Assembly: GCA_019637335.1 (NCBI GenBank) | Contig: JAHBVV010000028.1 | Location: forward strand, 1-64,000 | Length of the DNA stretch: 64,000 bases | Direction: 5' to 3' | Origin: Candidatus Hydrogenedentota bacterium | Lineage (GTDB): Bacteria; Hydrogenedentota; Hydrogenedentia; Hydrogenedentales; JAEUWI01 | Part shown: piece after piece, positions 12,106 to 54,715 of the stretch | Position numbering within the stretch: position 1 is the first letter of the stretch | How the letters are laid out: each line of letters starts with the position of its first letter | Made by a program: the position numbers and the translations under genes | The notes under the pieces: model-generated | The model's input: only the letters and a program-made list of their open reading frames with translations | Database searches by the model: none | Told to the model about the DNA's origin: nothing

Positions 12106-12133
12106 GTAGCGCGAAGGCGGCCCGCCGCGCTAC
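12106..12133. other. Strong hairpin at gene end
   Basis: GTAGCGC...GCGCTAC with inner GGCGG/CCGCC arms forms a near-complete 28-base stem that includes the stop codon of the gene ending at 12130. There is no T-tract, so it is either a repeat hairpin (family A-like core) or an mRNA 3' stabiliser and not a classical terminator. Confidence 0.5.
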
Positions 12134-13182
12134 TGCCGGTCGGCGGCGATGCGCACCTCGCCCACATACACACCCGCGCCGTGCCCCGCTTCCCTTTCGC
12201 CCGTCGCCACATCCACCTGTGAATACCAGCTGATGTAAAAGCGCGGCGCGTCCTCCTCCAGCGATTCCGGAATGGTCAACAGGCCCGGATAGCCGGTGTC
12301 GCCGCCACTGGGCAGGACGAGCAACTCGACGAGGTCGTTGTCGCGCAGTTCCCAGAGTTTCGTCACGCTTTTGCCGTCCCGCTGGCCGCGCCCGGCCACG
12401 AAGGCGCGGTCTTTCCAGAACGCCATGGCGGGCGAATGCACCATTTCGGAGAGTTCCGCGTCGTTCCAGGTGGCGTGCGCGGCGTCGCTGGTAAAAAGGC
12501 GCGCGGGGTTGCTGCCGCCAGTGCGCGATAGCATGGCGAGGGATCCGTCGGGACGCTTCCAGAAGTCGGCCTCGCCGCACATGTGGCTGCGGGTCACGGT
12601 GGAGACGAGCTCCCAGTTCAGGCCATCCTCCGAGCGCAGGAGCCGCGTCTCCCGGGCGTCCGGCACGGGGCGCAGCGCGGTGTAGGCGGCGGAGTAGAAG
12701 GCGTCGCCCAGGTGGCGGACGCGCCACAGCCACCAGCCCGGTTCATAGAGCCCGGCGACATCGGACCAGGTTTCGCCATCCTCGGTCCAGACCGCGTGGG
12801 ATCGGACCTTGTTGCGCTGCGGTGGTTTGGCGCCCTCGCCGTGGATGGTGTCCCAGACGCCGAAGTAGACGTAAAGGCGATCGCCCGCCAGCGCGAAATG
12901 CGGATCCCGGTCGTCGCCCAGGGTCTTGATCGTTTTCTGGTGGGCCCACGTGCGCATGTCCGGGCTGCGGAGGATGGTCACCGCGCCGTCCATGGAGTTG
13001 TGGCTTTGGCCGGTGCGGAAGCAGAGGTAGTAGTGGTCCCGATAGTGGACGAGATCCGTGAAGGCGTGGTGATCCGTTCCGGCGGTGACCTTGCTCCACC
13101 ACGCGAGCGTGGCGCTGGGGGATTGTGCGTGGAGCGGTTGCGCCAGGAGGGTCATGGCGAGGGTAAGCAGAACGGAGCGCAC
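12130..13182 (-). CDS. Secreted beta-propeller protein, sialidase/GH43-like
   Basis: A protein of 350 residues with signal MRSVLLTLAMTLLAQPLHAQ (GTG start at 13182 read as Met; AGAAGG 7-8 bases upstream). The mature part has repeated blade-like units: HYYLCFRTGQSHNSMDGAVT, ILRSPDMRTW, VWTEDGETWSDVAG, LLRSEDGLNWELVS and YISWYSQVD. The S-x-D-G-x-x-W pattern is the Asp-box of sialidase-type propellers, occurring at least three times. It may hydrolyse or only bind glycans. An N-terminal extension to an ATG at 13329 would run into the duplicated sequence and is unlikely. It stands alone downstream of the direct-repeat locus. Confidence 0.78.
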   Translation of the reverse strand: MRSVLLTLAMTLLAQPLHAQSPSATLAWWSKVTAGTDHHAFTDLVHYRDHYYLCFRTGQSHNSMDGAVTILRSPDMRTWAHQKTIKTLGDDRDPHFALAGDRLYVYFGVWDTIHGEGAKPPQRNKVRSHAVWTEDGETWSDVAGLYEPGWWLWRVRHLGDAFYSAAYTALRPVPDARETRLLRSEDGLNWELVSTVTRSHMCGEADFWKRPDGSLAMLSRTGGSNPARLFTSDAAHATWNDAELSEMVHSPAMAFWKDRAFVAGRGQRDGKSVTKLWELRDNDLVELLVLPSGGDTGYPGLLTIPESLEEDAPRFYISWYSQVDVATGEREAGHGAGVYVGEVRIAADRQ

Positions 13183-13245
13183 GTTGGAATTCCTTCTAAC
13201 GGGGATGGCGGCCGCAGCCCGACCGCGATTCAGGCTGGACAAAGG

Positions 13246-13315
13246 TACCCTATCGAATCCTTCCGAAGGGGTGCAAGAGCGCGCCGGGTCAGCCGGGGTT
13301 ACGCCGGTCGAGGAG
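13246..13315. repeat. 70-bp direct repeat, copy 1 (duplicate of methyltransferase 3' end)
   Basis: All 70 bases match 13875-13944 in the same orientation. In the second copy the sequence covers the last codons and stop of the homocysteine methyltransferase (LLDRRNPG-stop) plus 43 bases beyond. Here the same codons are an orphan fragment. The two copies flank a 559-base insert that carries a small gene. Confidence 0.95.
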
Positions 13316-13405
13316 ATTGCCATGAACATCGCGAACGTGGCTCTTGACTATCTTCAGCCCGAAAAGACGGTTTGCCAACTGACTGTCCAGCAACCATCTT
13401 GACTA

Positions 13406-13714
13406 CTATTGGCTGGAAGACTCCGCCGGATACTGCCAGGCAGACTCACGCTTGTAGTACCATGACTCTTCTTTGCCCGGAAGGCTCACGTATAGGCGGG
13501 AGCACTTCGGGCAGAGCAGAACAGAGCCTGTCAACCGTGCGGAATCCGCTATCAGCGCAAGTCGCGTCTCTCCATCGTCGTTGCAATTCACAACGCGCAT
13601 TTCTCTCCGGAGAAACTCTTGGTACTCAGGGTTAGCTACTACTAGGTAGGAATCATAGTTCGCTTCGAAGTTCGGTGGCTTGGATACAAACGAAAACCCG
13701 CAGGGACAGTACAT
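13406..13714 (-). CDS. Small zinc-ribbon-like protein of unknown function (accessory insert)
   Basis: A 102-residue soluble protein. Two cysteine pairs, CPCG at residues 3-6 and CPKC at 68-71, frame the middle like a zinc ribbon; an extra Cys is at 44. The centre is NYDSYLVVANPEYQEFLRRE, and the C-terminus is aromatic and charged. The gene is well supported by GGAGG seven bases before the ATG at 13714. Base composition is visibly more AT-rich than its neighbours, indicating a foreign origin. It lies, in the same direction as the methyltransferase, between two identical 70-bp repeats. The family is not recognised; an immunity or defence-related role can be imagined but nothing shows it. Confidence 0.72.
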   Translation of the reverse strand: MYCPCGFSFVSKPPNFEANYDSYLVVANPEYQEFLRREMRVVNCNDDGETRLALIADSARLTGSVLLCPKCSRLYVSLPGKEESWYYKRESAWQYPAESSSQ

Positions 13715-13784
13715 TTCTAAACCTCCAATTGGTTTGTTGTATCACCGTGGACGCTATTGCTCGGCGAACCCGTGGCAATCCAAT

Positions 13785-13830
13785 CCGCGCCTTCGGCGCG
13801 ATGCAGGCGAGCCGCCTGCGCTCCCAATGG
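13785..13830. repeat. Family A2 palindromic repeat, inverted copy
   Basis: CCGCGCCTTCGGCGCGATGC, then AGGCGAGCCGCCTGCGCTCC, is the reverse complement of the unit at 5153-5190 with a little more sequence. It lies inside the 559-base insert between the 70-bp repeats. Confidence 0.75.
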
Positions 13831-13874
13831 TCAACTCGCTTGTTGCCAAGGCCGCGCCTGGGGTCGGGAAGGGC

Positions 13875-13944
13875 TACCCTATCGAATCCTTCCGAAGGGG
13901 TGCAAGAGCGCGCCGGGTCAGCCGGGGTTACGCCGGTCGAGGAG
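13875..13944. repeat. 70-bp direct repeat, copy 2 (native methyltransferase 3' end)
   Basis: Identical to 13246-13315. It spans 27 bases of coding sequence and stop of the methyltransferase and 43 bases downstream. Within it, CCTTC-C-GAAGG is an imperfect palindrome. Confidence 0.95.
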
Positions 13945-14823
13945 GTCCCGGATCAGGGCGATGGCAGCGGGGCCTGTGCCGCAGCAGCCGCCGAAGACGC
14001 CGTGGCCGAGGGCGTCCAGGAGGGCCTCGATGTTCGCCGCTTCGAAGGGGTGGGGATAGCGGAGCGCGCCGTCGTGTTGTACGGGCTGCCCGGCGTTGGG
14101 CTTGAGCCAGATCGGGCCGGATCCGATGCATCCGCGCATGGTTTCGACCAGGTTCAGCAGCGACGGCGTTGCGGGCGCGCAATTGGCCCCCACCACGGCG
14201 GCGCCCGCGTTTATGGCCGCGCCCAGCGCGGTCTCCACGGAATCGCCGCACCAGGTTTCGTATGTGCGTCCGTCCACGGCGCGGAAGGCGAAAGAGCAGA
14301 CGATTTCTAGCTTGCAGGCGGCGCGCGCGGCTTCCAGGGCGATGGCGGCGTCCCGCGCGCTCGTCATGCTCTCGACGAGGATGAAATCCGCGCCGGCCTC
14401 CGCCAGGAGGGCCGCCTGCTCGCGGTACGAAGTAAACAGCGTTGCCTCGGTCACGGACGTATTTCGCGGGTCGCGGGCCGGCCCGATCGATCCGGCAATC
14501 AGCGGGGGCGGGCCGTCGGGATTGCCCAGCGCGGCGCCCTCGCGCGCCAGCGCCACACCCCGCATGTTGATTGACTCGCACAGCGTCTCGAGACCGGATG
14601 TCGCAAGGCGGGCCCGGCTGGCGCCGAAGGTGTTGGTGGTGAGGATGTCCGCCGAGCGCGCGTAGGCGGCGGCGAGTCGTGCGACTCGACCGGGGTGTTG
14701 TACGTTCCAGAGGTCCGCGCACTCGCGCGCGGTATCGAGGCCCTGCGCGATGAAGTTGCTTCCCCAGGCGCCGTCGGCCAGTACGATCCGGGCGCCGCGG
14801 AGCCGGTCGAGCAACGCGCTCAT
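13918..14823 (-). CDS. Homocysteine S-methyltransferase family protein
   Basis: A 301-residue TIM barrel of the BHMT/MetH-N family, which moves a methyl group from a donor such as S-methylmethionine, betaine or SAM to homocysteine to give methionine. Family signatures: LADGAWGSNF near the start, ADILTTNTFGASR, IAGSIGP, and the three zinc cysteines in GANCAP (about residue 218) and GGCCGTGP (about 280). The length is typical of the single-domain enzymes. The ATG at 14823 lies 34 bases behind the kdsB stop, so the two may be co-transcribed. The last codons form part of a 70-bp sequence duplicated 629 bases away; the copy here is intact. The methyl donor is not known. Confidence 0.9.
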   Translation of the reverse strand: MSALLDRLRGARIVLADGAWGSNFIAQGLDTARECADLWNVQHPGRVARLAAAYARSADILTTNTFGASRARLATSGLETLCESINMRGVALAREGAALGNPDGPPPLIAGSIGPARDPRNTSVTEATLFTSYREQAALLAEAGADFILVESMTSARDAAIALEAARAACKLEIVCSFAFRAVDGRTYETWCGDSVETALGAAINAGAAVVGANCAPATPSLLNLVETMRGCIGSGPIWLKPNAGQPVQHDGALRYPHPFEAANIEALLDALGHGVFGGCCGTGPAAIALIRDLLDRRNPG

Positions 14824-35239: not shown

Positions 35240-35734
35240 ATGACAGGATTATTGATGACGATAGTTGTCGGTGCTGTTGGGGTTGTAGTCGCTTGGCTTC
35301 TCAATAAGTTCTTGAGCCAATTGTGGGCTGCGAGAGAACGCAGTTCGGCCGTGCTCTTGAGACCATATATCTCGGCTGACGAGGCACAGTTGAGATCAGG
35401 AAAATTCGATATTGTAGATGGAGTGGTGAAGTCGGACCCAGTATTGACCGTTACCGCATCTATCGTCCAGGGAGATAAGAAGGTGACGATCGGATACGGC
35501 TATGCAGAGCTCCCAAACAAGCAGCAAATGGGTCTCGCAATTTGTCGAGGCACGGTTAAGACTATGGAGCCAGGTGGGCCGAAGAGTGTTTGGCAGGCTC
35601 ATATGTCCTATGCGGAGATCTCGCAAATCGAACAGATAGTCTTTGTCGCAGATGGAAACCCGGAAGAAAAATGGAGCGTATCCGAAAAGGACATTGAGTC
35701 GGTAAGAAAACAGGCACGCAGTCAGTTGAGATAG
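35240..35734 (+). CDS. Membrane-anchored small protein of unknown function
   Basis: A 164-residue protein (counting from the ATG at 35240, with GAGGG 8 bases upstream; a TTG at 35192 is the alternative). Residues 1-24 are a single membrane helix, MTGLLMTIVVGAVGVVVAWL. The rest is a soluble, beta-rich domain (AVLLRPYISADEAQLRS, VLTVTASIVQGDKKVTIGYG, MSYAEISQIEQIVFVA). No known domain is recognised. Codon use and base composition are clearly more AT-rich than the genes on both sides, which suggests recent acquisition. It is not translationally linked to the MFP gene upstream (85-base gap). Confidence 0.65.
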   Translation: MTGLLMTIVVGAVGVVVAWLLNKFLSQLWAARERSSAVLLRPYISADEAQLRSGKFDIVDGVVKSDPVLTVTASIVQGDKKVTIGYGYAELPNKQQMGLAICRGTVKTMEPGGPKSVWQAHMSYAEISQIEQIVFVADGNPEEKWSVSEKDIESVRKQARSQLR

Positions 35735-35812
35735 GGAGTTGACGAATAAACCTGAGATGCCGGGGATGCATAGTCTTGCGATTCGGAAGCAGCCAGGAGA
35801 CTACTCCACCGG

Positions 35813-36256
35813 AGCGCCAAACTATGGAGCGCCGGCGGCCCGCCGGCCAGACCCAGCCACAAGACCCCGCCCCCGAACAACAGCCTTGAAAGCGAAATAC
35901 CACCCCAATGGAGCGCCGACATCCCTGCTGGCTCCGGCGACCACGTCGCCGAACCCGCCACTTACTGGCGGCATCCCAAAGCTCATCGCTGCACAGCACC
36001 AACAAAAAGAATTAAACCACGAATGAACACCAATAGGCACGAATAAGACCAGCACCCGAAAACGGGCTCGCGCGCATGAGCCACGTAGTGGCGGCATACC
36101 GCGGCCCAGGCGTGAGTGGAGCGAACCCAGCGTCAGCCACTTCCAACTCGGGGCGAGCGCCACATGAACCACCATCAATGTAAAAAAAAGGCGCGTGTTG
36201 GAACGTTGGCATTTCGCCTGCGGCGAATCCCTGACCTTGCCGGCACAGATGCCGGC
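35813..36256. repeat. Family A fragments and repeat-rich spacer
   Basis: CTATGGAGCGCCGGCGGCCC at 35823-35842 and a second box, CCGGCACAGATGCCGGCGCT, at 36240-36259 are family A palindromes. Between them lies a 400-base stretch without a credible gene. The region 35735-36419 holds only these and family D copy 2. Confidence 0.6.
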
Positions 36257-41215: not shown

Positions 41216-44116
41216 ATGTGGGCTTGGACTTCGGCGGTCGCCATGGCGGCCCTTTCGCTGGCGGCGGGCCCGCGCGAGATGCGCGAGCTGGAGAAGGGCA
41301 GCTTCTTTCTGCGCGCGGACACGCCAGTCATTCTGGCCGACGAACTGTACCCGGAGCGGGCGAGGCTGCTTGCGCCGCTGTCCCGCGCGGCCGGCGGGGA
41401 ACTCCAGGTTATGCGCGCCTCCGAGGTGAGCCGTACGCCCGACGGGATATACATCGGCACGGCGGCGCATCCGGGGGGGCTCGACAAGCGGCGCCTGCGC
41501 AAACACCTGTACGGCGTGGCGGAGCTCGGGGAGGAGGGGTACCGCCTGGAGGTGGTGAAAAACGGCGTGATGCTGGCGGGCGGCGGGGAGCGCGGCGTGT
41601 GGCACGGCCTGCACACGCTCGCGGAGCTTCTCGCAACGCGCGGGGCCGACCTGCCCTACCTGATCATTCGCGACTGGCCGGTCCAGGGCGTGCGCGGGGT
41701 TTACCTTAGCGCGATGCCCGCCGAGGCGCACCTCCGGGACTATGCCGCGCTCCGGTGCACGCACCTTTTCTTCGATAGCCCCGACTTCCACGACCTGACC
41801 GGCGTGCGGGCGGAGGCCTGGCGCCGGGTGTTCGAGGCGGCGCGCGAAAACTACCTCGAACCCGTGCCGGTTTTCTCGACCCTCCACGGGATGGAGGCCT
41901 TTCTCCGGGCAAATCCCCGTTTGATCGAGGGGCGGGGCGTCGAGGAGGCGATCACGCTTCGCGGGGTGGAGTGGGCGGCGCTGCGTTACCCCAATATCAT
42001 TGCCGAATCGCCCGAGGAGCTTGATGTATCGATCAGCGGCGTGCCGTGCGTTTACGGCAAGGACTACTGGATCGAGGCGCAGCCTATCGTCGCGCCGTTC
42101 CTTTCGAGCCGTCCGGCCTGGCGAATTCGCCGCGAGCTGGAAGGGGCCATTCCGAGCGGGGCCGAGGTTACCGTACGCTACAGCTTCGCCACCGAGGACT
42201 CCGGCACGCTGTGTTTCGCGGCCCCGGAGGCCCGGGAATGGCTTGCGGTCGCGCTGGAAAGGGTCGTCACCGTGTTGCGCCCGCGCGCCATCCACCTGGA
42301 CCACGGCCGGATTGGCCGCCTCAACGCCGATCCGCGGTCGCGGGCGCTGGGTCTGGAGGACGCCGCGTATTTCGCGTGGACCCTCGAAGAGATCGAAAAG
42401 GCGGCCCGCGCGGCGGACCCGGACATCGCGCTGATGATGTGGAGCGATTTGCTGACGCCGCATCAGGGCGCGGGCCAGTACGGTTTCGAGGGGCTTGCGG
42501 AGCGGATTCCCGCTTCCATCGCCCGCCTGGGCCGCGCGCGCGCGGCGACGCCCGGCGAAGCCGTTGATCGGTTCGAGCAATTACAGCCCGTGGCGACATC
42601 GCCCGCGATAACGCTTTTTGACGGGCCCGCCGCGTCCGCCGGGGCGTTCCAGCAAGCGCTTGTGGAAGCGGAGGCGGCCGCGGGGGGCGGATTCATCGCG
42701 CCCGCGCACGATCCGGAAGCGGCGGCGCCCCTGCTCGATATGGCTTGGGGCGGGCTGGGCAACGCCTCGATCTGGACGCGGCGCCTGAACCGCTATTTCG
42801 ACGCCTCGCTGGCCGAACCCGACTTCGCGGCGATACGGGGCGTGCTGACGCGCTATCTGAACCGCGCCACCCTGCGCGGGGACGACCCCCGGGCGTTGAA
42901 CCGGCAATTTGAAGATTACTGCGGCAGGCACCTCGACGTGCTCTATACCGATGAGGCGGGCTATCGGCGGGTGCGATCCATGTTCGCCCTGATGACCGAG
43001 TATCTTGCGCTGGAGGACCGCTTCACCGCCTCCGGCGAGGAGGGCCACTTGCGCCGGCTCCGGGGCATTGTTACTGGCTGGCAGGCGCTCGACCCGGACG
43101 CCGCCGGCGAGCGCTACACGCGGATCCTCGAAACCATGGACGCGCAGCAGCTGTTTGTGCCCGCGACAATCCTGTTTCAGGAAGACCTGTATTACTACCG
43201 CGAGGATCGCCCGCCCTACCCGCAGTTTGAGATTCCCGTGCGTCCCGAGTTTCGGGATGCGCAATCCGAGGCCGAGGCCACGATCCGCCTGTTGCCCGGT
43301 CAGGCGGCGGTGCGGCGGATTGGTTTTGAAAGCGTCCGCGTCGACGCGATGGCGCTGGAGGCGCGGCGGGCCGGGGGCGGTTTTGATGCGATGCAGACCT
43401 GGGCGGGTGTTGGCATCGCCGGCGTGCGCGCGCCGCTGATTGTCGCCGGGGGCGCGGGCGCCCCCGAATTGCGCCTGACGGCGCGGAGCGAGGGCCCGCC
43501 CGCCGTGCTGCGGGGGCTGCGCTTTCTTGGCGTGAAGGAGCCCGCCGTGCTGGAGGGCCGCTTCGCCGTACAGCCGCCCCCGATGCGCGCAGAGTTCACG
43601 GCGTCGGCCTGGGCGCCGGTCCCGGTGGCGGGGGGCTTCCTCCGGCGCGACGCCGAGGGCTTCGCGGCCGCGCCCACGCGCATCCGGGCGCTGATCGATC
43701 GGAGCGGGCTCTACATTGGCATCGAGGCGAGCGATCCGCGGCCGGATGCCATCGTGGCGGACTTCACGCAGCGCGACGCGCCGCTGTGGGAGCAGGAGAG
43801 CGTCGAGGTGTGGCTGCACCCCGAAGGCCGCCGCCCGATCCGGCTGGCCGTCAGCCCGCAGGGCGTGCAGTTCGATAGCGAGGCGGACGACGCCGGGTGG
43901 GATGGCGCGTGGGACGCGGTGACCCAGCGCACGGAGACGGGGTGGAATGCGCTCGTGCGCGTGCCGGCGGCGTGGCTGGGGCGGGTGTCGCGCGGGAGCC
44001 GGATCCCGTTTAATGTGGTGCGGAACCGGTATGGCGTGGAGCGGGAGGAAAGCGCCTGGGCGCATGCGTATGGCGCGGCGCCGGATGTGCAGTGGGGGGA
44101 GCTGCGGTTTCCGTAG
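41216..44116 (+). CDS. Large exported GH20-like glycosidase with CBM9-like C-terminus
   Basis: A 966-residue secreted protein with a short signal (MWAWTSAVAMAALSLAAGP). Residues 20-130 resemble the GH20b/alpha-glucuronidase N-domain (EEGYRLEVVKNGVMLAGGGE, RGVWHGLHTLAELLATRG). A barrel follows (VRGVYLSAMP, THLFFDSPDFHD, LRPRAIHLDHGRIGRLN, ALMMWSDLLTPHQGAG). The last 150 residues look like a CBM9-type carbohydrate-binding domain (LWEQESVEVWLHPEGRRPIR, TGWNALVRVPAAWLG). GGAGGAA precedes the ATG. The D-E pair of true hexosaminidases is not clear, so activity is inferred. Its last 69 coding bases recur at 45278-45346. Confidence 0.78.
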   Translation: MWAWTSAVAMAALSLAAGPREMRELEKGSFFLRADTPVILADELYPERARLLAPLSRAAGGELQVMRASEVSRTPDGIYIGTAAHPGGLDKRRLRKHLYGVAELGEEGYRLEVVKNGVMLAGGGERGVWHGLHTLAELLATRGADLPYLIIRDWPVQGVRGVYLSAMPAEAHLRDYAALRCTHLFFDSPDFHDLTGVRAEAWRRVFEAARENYLEPVPVFSTLHGMEAFLRANPRLIEGRGVEEAITLRGVEWAALRYPNIIAESPEELDVSISGVPCVYGKDYWIEAQPIVAPFLSSRPAWRIRRELEGAIPSGAEVTVRYSFATEDSGTLCFAAPEAREWLAVALERVVTVLRPRAIHLDHGRIGRLNADPRSRALGLEDAAYFAWTLEEIEKAARAADPDIALMMWSDLLTPHQGAGQYGFEGLAERIPASIARLGRARAATPGEAVDRFEQLQPVATSPAITLFDGPAASAGAFQQALVEAEAAAGGGFIAPAHDPEAAAPLLDMAWGGLGNASIWTRRLNRYFDASLAEPDFAAIRGVLTRYLNRATLRGDDPRALNRQFEDYCGRHLDVLYTDEAGYRRVRSMFALMTEYLALEDRFTASGEEGHLRRLRGIVTGWQALDPDAAGERYTRILETMDAQQLFVPATILFQEDLYYYREDRPPYPQFEIPVRPEFRDAQSEAEATIRLLPGQAAVRRIGFESVRVDAMALEARRAGGGFDAMQTWAGVGIAGVRAPLIVAGGAGAPELRLTARSEGPPAVLRGLRFLGVKEPAVLEGRFAVQPPPMRAEFTASAWAPVPVAGGFLRRDAEGFAAAPTRIRALIDRSGLYIGIEASDPRPDAIVADFTQRDAPLWEQESVEVWLHPEGRRPIRLAVSPQGVQFDSEADDAGWDGAWDAVTQRTETGWNALVRVPAAWLGRVSRGSRIPFNVVRNRYGVEREESAWAHAYGAAPDVQWGELRFP
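44047..44116. repeat. 3'-end duplication, native copy (GH20-like gene)
   Basis: The last 23 codons and stop of the glycosidase. The copy at 45277-45346 differs at four bases: three synonymous (GAT/GAC, GAG/GAA, CCG/CCA) and one Gln-to-Pro. Both end in TAG followed by five Gs. Confidence 0.95.
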
Positions 44117-44119
44117 GGG

Positions 44120-44366
44120 GTGGACAGAGTGGACAGAGTGGACAGAGTGGACAGAGTGGACAGAGTGGACAGAGTGGACCCGCCTTCGGCGGGCAGGCCC
44201 GTGGACGGAGTGGACGGAGTGGACAGAGTGGACAGAGTGGACAGAGTGGACGGAGTGGACGGAGTGGACGGAGTGGACGGAGTGGACAGAGTGGACAGAG
44301 TGGACGGAGTGGACGGGGTGGACGGGGTGGACCCGCCTTCGGCGGGCAGGCCCGTGGACGGGGTGG
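44120..44366. repeat. 9-bp GGACAGAGT tandem array with two embedded hairpins
   Basis: About twenty-three 9-bp units (GGACAGAGT, GGACGGAGT and GGACGGGGT) follow the stop codon. Two 28-base inserts, CCCGCCTTCGGCGGGCAGGC, then CCGTGGAC, interrupt at 44178 and 44331. Frames through the array stay open on both strands because 9 is divisible by 3. Bases 44367-44461 show no gene. Confidence 0.95.
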
Positions 44367-44461: not shown

Positions 44462-45049
44462 CTACGGTCCGCCCTGGGCTCGCCTGCGTTCCGTGCGCAC
44501 GCGGTACATCCGCTCGGTGATGCCGCCTTCATTCTCGAAGGCTCTGGCCTGGGAAGCCAGCTGTCGGTCCAGCAAGCTACAGGCGACGTTAATCAGCACA
44601 AGCGCGGCGTTGGCCGCAATCTCAGGATAGTTGGATCCACTGGTTTCGCGATCATGTGTTTCGCGCACCCACGCGGCGACATCGTCCGCGCTTGAGCAGC
44701 GACACGCCACGAGCGCCGCCCTGCGCGGATCGGCGTTCTCCCATCGCGCCAACTTTCGGTGACGGAGGAAATCCTCATAATCCTTGCGGAGTTCTTCCAG
44801 GCTCGCCCGAGCGATTCCAGTGAGCTTCATCTCGATTTTCCGGGAGGTCGCGGAGGCCTGGCTGCCTTCGACGATATTCTGGACCCCGCTTCGCGCCGCC
44901 TGGACCATCTGGTCGTGGGTGCGGCTGCGAATCGCGATATAGCGATCGCAGAATCGTACGGTTACGTCGTAGACGAGCCTGGAGATCTGGTACGTCTTGA
45001 GCCGTTTGTATCCACCGTGTTTTGGGAGGATGGATTCCGCATCGGGCAT
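44462..45049 (-). CDS. Four-helix-bundle (S23/IVP-like) protein
   Basis: A 195-residue helical protein. GGYKRLKTYQISRLVYDVTV, RFCDRYIAIRSRTHDQMVQA, ARSGVQNIVEGSQASATSRK and TGIARASLEELRKDYEDFLR match the four-helix-bundle suffix proteins whose relatives occur in intervening sequences of 23S rRNA. Function unknown. A strong AAGGAGG precedes the ATG at 45049. Its own promoter with a palindrome is intact (45074-45122). It lies between two 9-bp arrays and two copies of the neighbouring gene's 3' end, so it looks inserted, as an accessory cassette. Confidence 0.85.
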   Translation of the reverse strand: MPDAESILPKHGGYKRLKTYQISRLVYDVTVRFCDRYIAIRSRTHDQMVQAARSGVQNIVEGSQASATSRKIEMKLTGIARASLEELRKDYEDFLRHRKLARWENADPRRAALVACRCSSADDVAAWVRETHDRETSGSNYPEIAANAALVLINVACSLLDRQLASQARAFENEGGITERMYRVRTERRRAQGGP

Positions 45050-45131: not shown

Positions 45132-45276
45132 TGGACGGAGTGGACAGAGTGGACAGAGTGGACAGAGTGGACAGAGTGGACAGAGTGGACAGAGTGGACG
45201 GAGTGGACAGAGTGGACGGGGTGGACGGGGTGGACGGGGTGGACGGGGTGGACGGGGTGGACGGGGTGGACGGGGT
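45132..45276. repeat. 9-bp GGACAGAGT tandem array, second block
   Basis: About sixteen units, with GGACGGAGT/GGACAGAGT at the left and GGACGGGGT at the right, ending directly in the duplicated 3' end at 45277. The array-to-gene junction keeps the reading frame open. Confidence 0.95.
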
Positions 45277-45346
45277 GGAAAGCGCCTGGGCGCATGCGTA
45301 TGGCGCGGCGCCGGACGTGCCGTGGGGGGAACTGCGGTTTCCATAG
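45277..45346. repeat. 3'-end duplication, orphan copy (GH20-like gene)
   Basis: An orphan copy of the last 23 codons and TAG of the glycosidase, 65 of 69 bases identical from GAA to TAG. It is followed by a GC hairpin (45350-45374) that would have been the original gene's end. The rest of the gene is not adjacent. Confidence 0.93.
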
Positions 45347-45349
45347 GGG

Positions 45350-45374
45350 GGTGGGGCGCGTGTGGCGCCCCACC
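45350..45374. terminator. GC-rich hairpin between convergent ends
   Basis: GGTGGGGCGC, loop GTGTG, GCGCCCCACC form a perfect 10-bp stem. It lies after the duplicated TAG and before the ceramidase-like stop on the other strand, so it could end transcription both ways; no T-tract is present. Confidence 0.55.
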
Positions 45375-53262: not shown

Positions 53263-53841
53263 ATGGACGACGGCTGGTATTCCCGGGGCTATCTCCCGCA
53301 TTTCGATGATCCGGAGCGTATCCAGTTCATCACCTTTCGGCTGCACGACTCCATGCCGCGCGAGGTGCTCGAACTTTATCGAGCGCAGTTGGAACAGGGG
53401 CTCATCACCGAGCAACAGCGGCTCAAGAAGATGGAGGACTACCTCGACAAGGGCTACGGCGCGTGTTGGTTGAAACAGCCGCGTATCGGCCGGCTGGTTG
53501 AGAATGCGCTGTTGCATGGAGACGGCGATCGCTACCTTCTCATCAGTTGGTGCGTCATGCCCAACCACGTCCACGCACTTATCGAGCCATTGGATGGGCG
53601 AAAGCTACGGGGCATTCTGCACACCTGGAAGTCGTACACCGCGCAGATAGCGAATTCGTGGCTGGGGCGCAAGGGCGCGTTCTGGCAGCGCGAATTTCGT
53701 GATCGCTATATTCGGAACTTCAAGCACTTTGAAGGGGTCAAGGCGTATATCGAGCAGAACCCGGTGGACGCGGGGCTGGTTGAACAGGCCATCGATTGGC
53801 CTTTCAGTAGTGCGCGATTGCGGGAGGGGCGGGAGGATTGA
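53263..53841 (+). CDS. REP-associated tyrosine transposase (RAYT, IS200/Y1 type)
   Basis: A 192-residue protein. The Y1-transposase core reads LISWCVMPNHVHALIEP (the HVH metal site), followed by LRGILHTWKSYTAQIANSWL, whose Tyr is the probable nucleophile, and FWQREFRDRYIRNFKHFEGV plus YIEQNPVDAGL, typical of RAYTs. RAYTs cut and move single-stranded REP hairpins and are usually single-copy. It is flanked on the left by family A/D and on the right by a large array of family A hairpins, which is where its substrates would be. The ATG at 53263 has AAGGGG six bases upstream. It is apparently intact. Confidence 0.92.
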   Translation: MDDGWYSRGYLPHFDDPERIQFITFRLHDSMPREVLELYRAQLEQGLITEQQRLKKMEDYLDKGYGACWLKQPRIGRLVENALLHGDGDRYLLISWCVMPNHVHALIEPLDGRKLRGILHTWKSYTAQIANSWLGRKGAFWQREFRDRYIRNFKHFEGVKAYIEQNPVDAGLVEQAIDWPFSSARLREGRED

Positions 53842-53849
53842 TGGCGGCG

Positions 53850-54715
53850 TTGGCCGGCGGGGTCGGCGGGGTCGGCGGTCCGCCGGGGTCGGGACGCCAG
53901 CGCTCCATCGGGGTGGTTTTCCGTTCTGGACGGTGTTGTTCGGGGGTGCGCTCCCTTGGGTTGGTTGGCCGGCGGGGTCGGCGATCCGCCGGAGGCGGGA
54001 CGCCAGCGCTCCATCGGGGTGGTTCTCCGTTCTTGACGGTGTTGTTCGGGGGTGCGCTCCCTTGGGTTGGATGGCCGGCGGGGACGCCAGCGCTCCATCG
54101 GGGTGGTTTTCCGTTCTTGACGGTGTTGTTCGGGGGTGCGCTCCCTTGGGTTGGTTGGCCGGCGGGGCCGCCAGCGCTCCGCCGGAGGCGGAATGCCAGC
54201 GCTCCATCGGGGGTGGTTTTCCGTTCTTGACGGTGTTGTTCGGGGGTGCGCTCCCTTGGGTTGGTTGGCCGGCGGGGTCGGCGATCCGCCGGAGGCGGGA
54301 CGCCAGCGCTCCATCGGGGTGGTTTATTCCTTCTCGACGGTGTTGTTCGGGGGTGCGCTCCCTTGGGTTGGATGGCCGGCGGGGTCGGCGATCCGCCGGA
54401 GGCGGGACGCCAGCGCTCCATCGGGGTGGTTTTCCGTTCTGGACGGTGTTGTTCGGGGGTGCGCTCCCTTGGGTCGGTTGGCCGGCGGGTACGCCAGCGC
54501 TCCATCGGGGTGGTTTTCCGTTCTCGACGGTGTTGTTCGGGGGTGCGCTCCCTTGGTTTGTTCGGCCGGCAGGGTCGGCGATCCGCCGGAGGCGGGACGC
54601 CAGCGCTCCATCGGGGTGGTTTTCCGTTCTGGACGGTGTTGTTCGGGGGTGCGCTCCCTTGGGTTGGTTGGCCGGCGGGGACGCCAGCGCTCCATCGGGG
54701 TGGTTTTCGTTGCGT
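53850..54715. repeat. RAYT-adjacent array of eight family A-type units
   Basis: Eight copies of GTTGTTCGGGGGTGCGCTCC alternate with CCAGCGCTCCATCGGGGTGG. Unit lengths are either about 81-83 or 107-110 bases, the long form having an added GTCGGCGATCCGCCGGAGGC. Reading frames of up to 350 codons cross it on both strands but are artefacts of the repeat. It starts directly after the RAYT stop. Confidence 0.93.

Follow-up and report, generated by a model that had tools for sequence, protein, structure and literature searches.

The locus between a homocysteine S-methyltransferase gene and a propeller-like gene is best read as a recent insertion of 559 bp of foreign DNA, accompanied by duplication of a 70-bp stretch of the target, an event of the class known as "insertion with long target duplication", and we place the probability of this reading at roughly 0.6. 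In the window (the whole stretch of 64,000 nucleotides analysed) the target repeat is present in two copies, the edges of the insert are sharp, its GC content differs from that of the surroundings, the gene it carries is patchily distributed, and the same geometry recurs elsewhere in the genome. These observations support the proposal of the initial annotation that the locus holds a target duplication far longer than those made by known transposons; its second suggestion, a tandem duplication that served to accept DNA, would look the same as an insertion in these data.

The duplicated gene end

The two copies stand in direct orientation and agree at 70 of 70 positions, as first reported for this locus, and because the bases immediately outside them do not match (G against C on the left, A against G on the right) the repeat unit measures exactly 70 bp (Table 1). 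The orphan copy still translates as LLDRRNPG followed by a stop, in keeping with the earlier description of an intact gene end on one side of the insert and an orphan beyond it. Judged from the sequence, chance cannot account for an exact 70-bp repeat 629 bp apart. The initial annotation had named the presence of the 70 bp at many unrelated loci as an outcome that would speak against an insertion, and a genome-wide search (7,157,908 bases in 55 contigs) returned these two copies only, so that a dispersed repeat is rejected. No RNA structure is indicated within the 70 bp (z = 0.69), and a promoter scan gave no sigma-70-like site, for which reason no duplication of a promoter is claimed. With copies that are 100% identical, the event is probably recent: the locus would be the youngest bracket of the set described below, or else its copies have been homogenised.

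Table 1. Features of the insertion locus and bracketed inserts found in the same genome. Positions are those of the window unless prefixed; percentages for brackets give the identity between the two copies.
Feature	Position	Strand	Description
70-bp repeat, gene copy	13875..13944	-	Last 8 codons of the methyltransferase gene, stop codon and 43 bp downstream
70-bp repeat, orphan copy	13246..13315	-	On the far side of the insert, upstream of the propeller gene
Insert	13316..13874	.	559 bp; GC 0.55 against 0.65 for the window
Dispersed hairpin repeat	13778..13832 (about)	.	Inside the insert; more than 40 further matches in the genome
Homocysteine S-methyltransferase gene	13918..14823	-	PF02574, E 3.6e-46; target gene, still intact
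BNR/propeller-like gene	12130..13184	-	Downstream of the orphan copy; shares 60% identity with the G003 orthologue
Captured gene	13406..13714	-	102 aa; cysteines C3/C5 and C68/C71 (CPKC); own Shine-Dalgarno sequence
Bracket	C3:299502-299614 / 301620-301732		113 bp, 93.8%; AAA ATPase and DUF4276
Bracket	C6:156889-156960 / 158243-158315		73 columns, 91.8%; TacA antitoxin and GNAT toxin
Bracket	C1:849094-849183 / 851037-851126		90 bp, 96.7%; AbiEii and AbiEi-like partner, 5'-end type
Bracket	C1:807088-807172 / 808002-808086		85 bp, 78%; ParE and ParD
Bracket	C3:143587 / 146520		About 110 bp, 73-76%; RloB and AAA
Bracket	C8:90588-90688 / 94131-94231		101 bp, 94%; histidine kinase (named from sequence)
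Bracket	C8:177007-177259 / 179539-179791		253 bp, 95%
Bracket	C3:154555-154689 / 158029-158163		135 bp, 97%
Bracket	44036-44120 / 45266-45350		85 bp, 91.8%; overlooked in the initial annotation

The insert and its captured gene

Apart from a dispersed repeat, the sequence of the insert is unique in the genome. Its 559 bp hold a single ORF for 102 aa and neither an integrase or transposase gene nor a recombinase remnant, and no terminal inverted repeats were found at its ends; the absence of such repeats and a duplication of 70 bp rather than of a short, fixed length set the locus apart from DDE transposons and insertion sequences. The dispersed hairpin repeat, which the initial annotation had already noticed within the insert, occupies about 55 of the 559 bp and is probably incidental. 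It invites comparison with REP elements and the REP-associated transposases (Y1_Tnp), for which the genome yields 12 matches, but it forms a small part of the insert and is missing from most of the bracketed inserts, so that a role for it as the cause of the bracketing is unsupported; the Y1_Tnp family is not known to make target duplications. Several of the 12 Y1_Tnp matches lie next to repeat arrays, and the match at 53536-53760 of the window adjoins a dense array at 53890-54700.

The captured gene begins with ATG behind a GGAGG motif, and its ORF has a GC content of 0.53. It was initially annotated as an AT-rich, zinc-ribbon-like gene with a good Shine-Dalgarno sequence; composition and ribosome-binding site agree with this, while the zinc-ribbon label comes down to conserved cysteines in a protein that has no match above cut-off among the Pfam, NCBIfam, PADLOC or PHROG families. 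A single-sequence structure prediction was uninformative (mean pLDDT 43). A profile of the gene finds members in 13 of 68 genomes of the phylum, the source genome included, all 68 belonging to one order. The relatives share 26-44% identity, C68 and C71 are invariant throughout the family, and C3 and C5 are present in most members.

In the 12 other genomes these relatives occupy unrelated sites, many of them with a GC content below that of their surroundings, and as far as sequence comparison indicates the captured gene behaves as a small mobile gene. One relative (G033, L025:1150-3234) sits between gatC and gatA, a few bases from each; another, in G001 (L027:1501-2572), overlaps a subsequent gene for 266 aa without a family match, with which it possibly forms a two-gene module; and a third, in G047, lies near a probable REP-associated transposase gene recognised by eye. 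At the gene's other 13 matches no bracketing repeat exceeds 14 bp. Bracketing is therefore rejected as a trait of the small gene itself and belongs to the insertion event.

Gene calls came from a simple codon-bias caller. The propeller gene starts near 13184, with GTG after AGAAGG, and not at the mechanical ORF start 13329, from which the frame crosses the orphan copy.

The site in congeners

In three congeners (G001, G002 and G003) the methyltransferase orthologues adjoin the same cytidylyltransferase gene, and no small gene of this family is found near the methyltransferase in any of them. The direct junction of methyltransferase and propeller genes that the initial annotation expected in relatives was not found in these three, whose neighbourhoods differ and none of which is a close strain (even the nearest methyltransferase orthologue shares just about 52% protein identity). 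G001 has the methyltransferase followed by a small gene and NicO, and in G003 a gap of 3.3 kb on one contig, occupied by other genes including a histidine kinase, separates the methyltransferase from the propeller gene. This gap allows for more than one set of ancestral neighbours and counts against the insertion reading.

Other bracketed inserts in the genome

Local repeats were sought in stretches that total 2.70 Mb, or 38% of the genome. The scan returned 290 direct pairs, a count in which a single locus may appear more than once, against one inverted pair under identical settings (a 22-base seed and a uniqueness filter). Many of the direct pairs sit in intergenic repeat arrays, and a subset brackets complete genes by copying the end of a neighbour. 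The initial annotation had suggested a search for small genes flanked by a copied neighbouring 3' end, and about a dozen complete inserts bracketed by copies of a neighbouring gene end, 45-253 bp long and 73-97% identical, were found in the 2.70 Mb. Insert genes assigned to TacA, GNAT, AbiEii, ParE/ParD, DUF4276/AAA and RloB/AAA passed the Pfam cut-offs. The bracket at C8:90588 should be viewed with the caution that its host gene, at C8:89229, is a member of a large family, which could confuse this case. Several further pairs of direct repeats turned out to be tandem paralogues or parts of repeat arrays and were discounted.

Five orphans (C3:299502, C3:154555, C8:90588, C8:177007 and window 45266) retain the C-terminus and stop of the neighbouring gene at 91.8-97% identity, and in these five cases, as at the methyltransferase, the orphan stop falls at the neighbour's own stop or within a codon of it. 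The orphan of the TacAT bracket (C6:156894) keeps only a shorter internal segment of the tail; the genes flanking this insert are neighbours in G003, about 0.7 kb apart, which is consistent with an insertion in the lineage of the source genome. In the second bracket of the window the 3' end of the gene at 41216-44116 is copied past an insert of 1.15 kb, which carries a gene for 195 aa (44462-45049, minus strand) with a sub-threshold match to 23S_rRNA_IVP. This insert has arrays of the nine-base unit GTGGACRGA at both of its inner edges.

A systematic scan for gene tails copied within 4 kb found them downstream of 8 of 1391 genes and upstream of none of the 1391. On the side facing the insert, the copied segment ends at most 8 bp from the stop codon in six of the ten clear cases, and 43 bases past it at the methyltransferase.

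Two related arrangements were seen beside these. At leuD, in a case free of any captured gene, 81 bp of the 5' end are copied ahead of the intact gene with 88 bp of filler that holds a dispersed palindrome (CATTCCCGCGAAAGCGGGAATCC); the start of leuD is present three times (G000 C3:260468-260519, 260863-260943 and 261032-261112), and two broken gene starts remain. The pair at G000 C2:33846-34422 / 35312-35888 was left uncounted, since it resembles a tandem pair of paralogues that have an end in common: the two genes are adjacent and divergent, with near-identical 3' ends of 577 bp that would reflect either gene conversion or tail duplication.

Composition and cargo of the inserts

The GC content of the insert is below that of the flanks in 13 of 14 bracketed inserts. 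Most of the bracketed toxin-antitoxin cases came from the very scan that found the brackets. An unbiased set of 13 toxin loci, drawn up from family searches, contains 3 that are bracketed, compared with 23 of 803 similarly sized genes (Fisher p = 0.007). None of eight PIN-domain loci is bracketed, and some bracketed inserts carry non-defence genes. An enrichment of addiction modules among the bracketed inserts is thus suggestive, not firm.

Alternative explanations

Homology-assisted uptake would also yield a copy of the tail on each side of new DNA. Here an incoming fragment or circle that shares the tail would recombine with it, by a Campbell-type event or by homology-facilitated illegitimate recombination, and so double it; the length of the copies would vary with the shared homology, and the finding of tail copies downstream of genes only fits such a route. 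We nevertheless regard it as unlikely, since the donor would need a 100% identical tail already fused to the foreign gene, and no such relative was found.

Tyrosine-recombinase islands classically target the 3' ends of genes and carry a copy of the end that keeps the gene intact. The geometry seen here, with an intact target gene and an orphan end on the far side, is the same, and the 70-bp copies could be attL and attR of an integrative element that has been reduced to one cargo gene. This reading is rather improbable, however, for an insert of merely 559 bp that holds neither a recombinase nor a remnant of one, and the 70-bp sequence occurs at no further locus; the other brackets, moreover, involve unrelated targets with repeats of differing length and sequence and hold toxin-antitoxin or defence genes, free of recombinases among the genes examined. 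The target sequence differs from locus to locus.

The position of six of these edges near stop codons raises the further idea of an active, tail-anchored gene capture, in which DNA would be joined near the stop codon and the tail copied to the far side, leaving both neighbours functional. We consider this doubtful to much the same degree as an att origin; if it were true, the edges near stop codons would be explained by a dedicated enzyme or by breaks that transcription causes at the ends of genes.

The tail could also have been doubled on its own, in tandem or by template switching, with a separate insertion between the copies before or after; the genome does hold numerous local direct duplications 30-200 bp long, some with filler and others without, and many of these lie in arrays. 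Such a combination is decidedly unlikely: about ten loci would each need two events in one place, and the copy invariably lies beyond the insert. An assembly artefact is barely conceivable, even in a genome of 55 contigs: 70 bp is shorter than a sequencing read, the contig spans 97 kb, and the copies at the other brackets have diverged (73-97%), which is not the product of an assembler.

A possible mechanism

For an insertion with long target duplication we suggest that the chromosome would be nicked once on each strand, the nicks lying about 70 bp from each other, or would present an end with a long overhang; that both overhangs would be filled in; and that a linear fragment would be joined between the filled ends without a dedicated recombinase. 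Ku has no match in the genome, which is 96% complete, so that classical non-homologous end joining is unlikely, Ku-dependent joining is unsupported, and the joining would be Ku-independent. Plant patch-mediated repair of double-strand breaks likewise leaves filler of variable length between copies of the target, but relies on eukaryotic end-joining enzymes.

Because the copied stretch spans the gene end and part of the intergenic DNA, the methyltransferase retains its end and the gene downstream its upstream region, so that the insertion is harmless, which explains the survival of such inserts. Recombination between the copies could delete the insert exactly, so its persistence implies youth or selection. 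Such easy and exact loss would favour recent events as well as addictive or defence cargo, which is common among the other bracketed inserts.

Relation to known insertions and implications

The class was described by Nobusato, Uchiyama, Ohashi and Kobayashi (2000, Gene 259:99-108), as cited in PMC1643837 and PMC3874152. As these two articles relate it, selfish restriction-modification genes of Helicobacter pylori were found, by comparison of two strains, to be flanked by long target duplications of ~100 bp and variable length, and the passages concerned name no enzyme for the process. On that account the likeness lies in a transposase-free insert between long direct repeats copied from the target, and in the variable length of these repeats, here 45 to 253 bp among the bracketed inserts. 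The differences from the Helicobacter pylori cases, as described there, are that our cargo is a small unassigned gene, with toxin-antitoxin, AbiE, RloB-type and other genes at the remaining loci; that the observations come from one genome of a poorly sampled phylum and not from a pair of strains; and that the tail copies often end at most 8 bp from a stop codon.

The pattern is therefore already known, and by the features examined the locus is best assigned to that class. Any novelty may lie in how many such scars a single genome holds and in cargo other than restriction-modification genes. The movement of small selfish genes, toxin-antitoxin and restriction units among them, in the absence of a transposase has long been a puzzle. 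This genome seems to hold many scars of differing age (73-100% identity), and it thereby offers a place to measure the choice of target, the length of the duplication and the nature of the cargo, as well as a starting point for testing break-and-fill.
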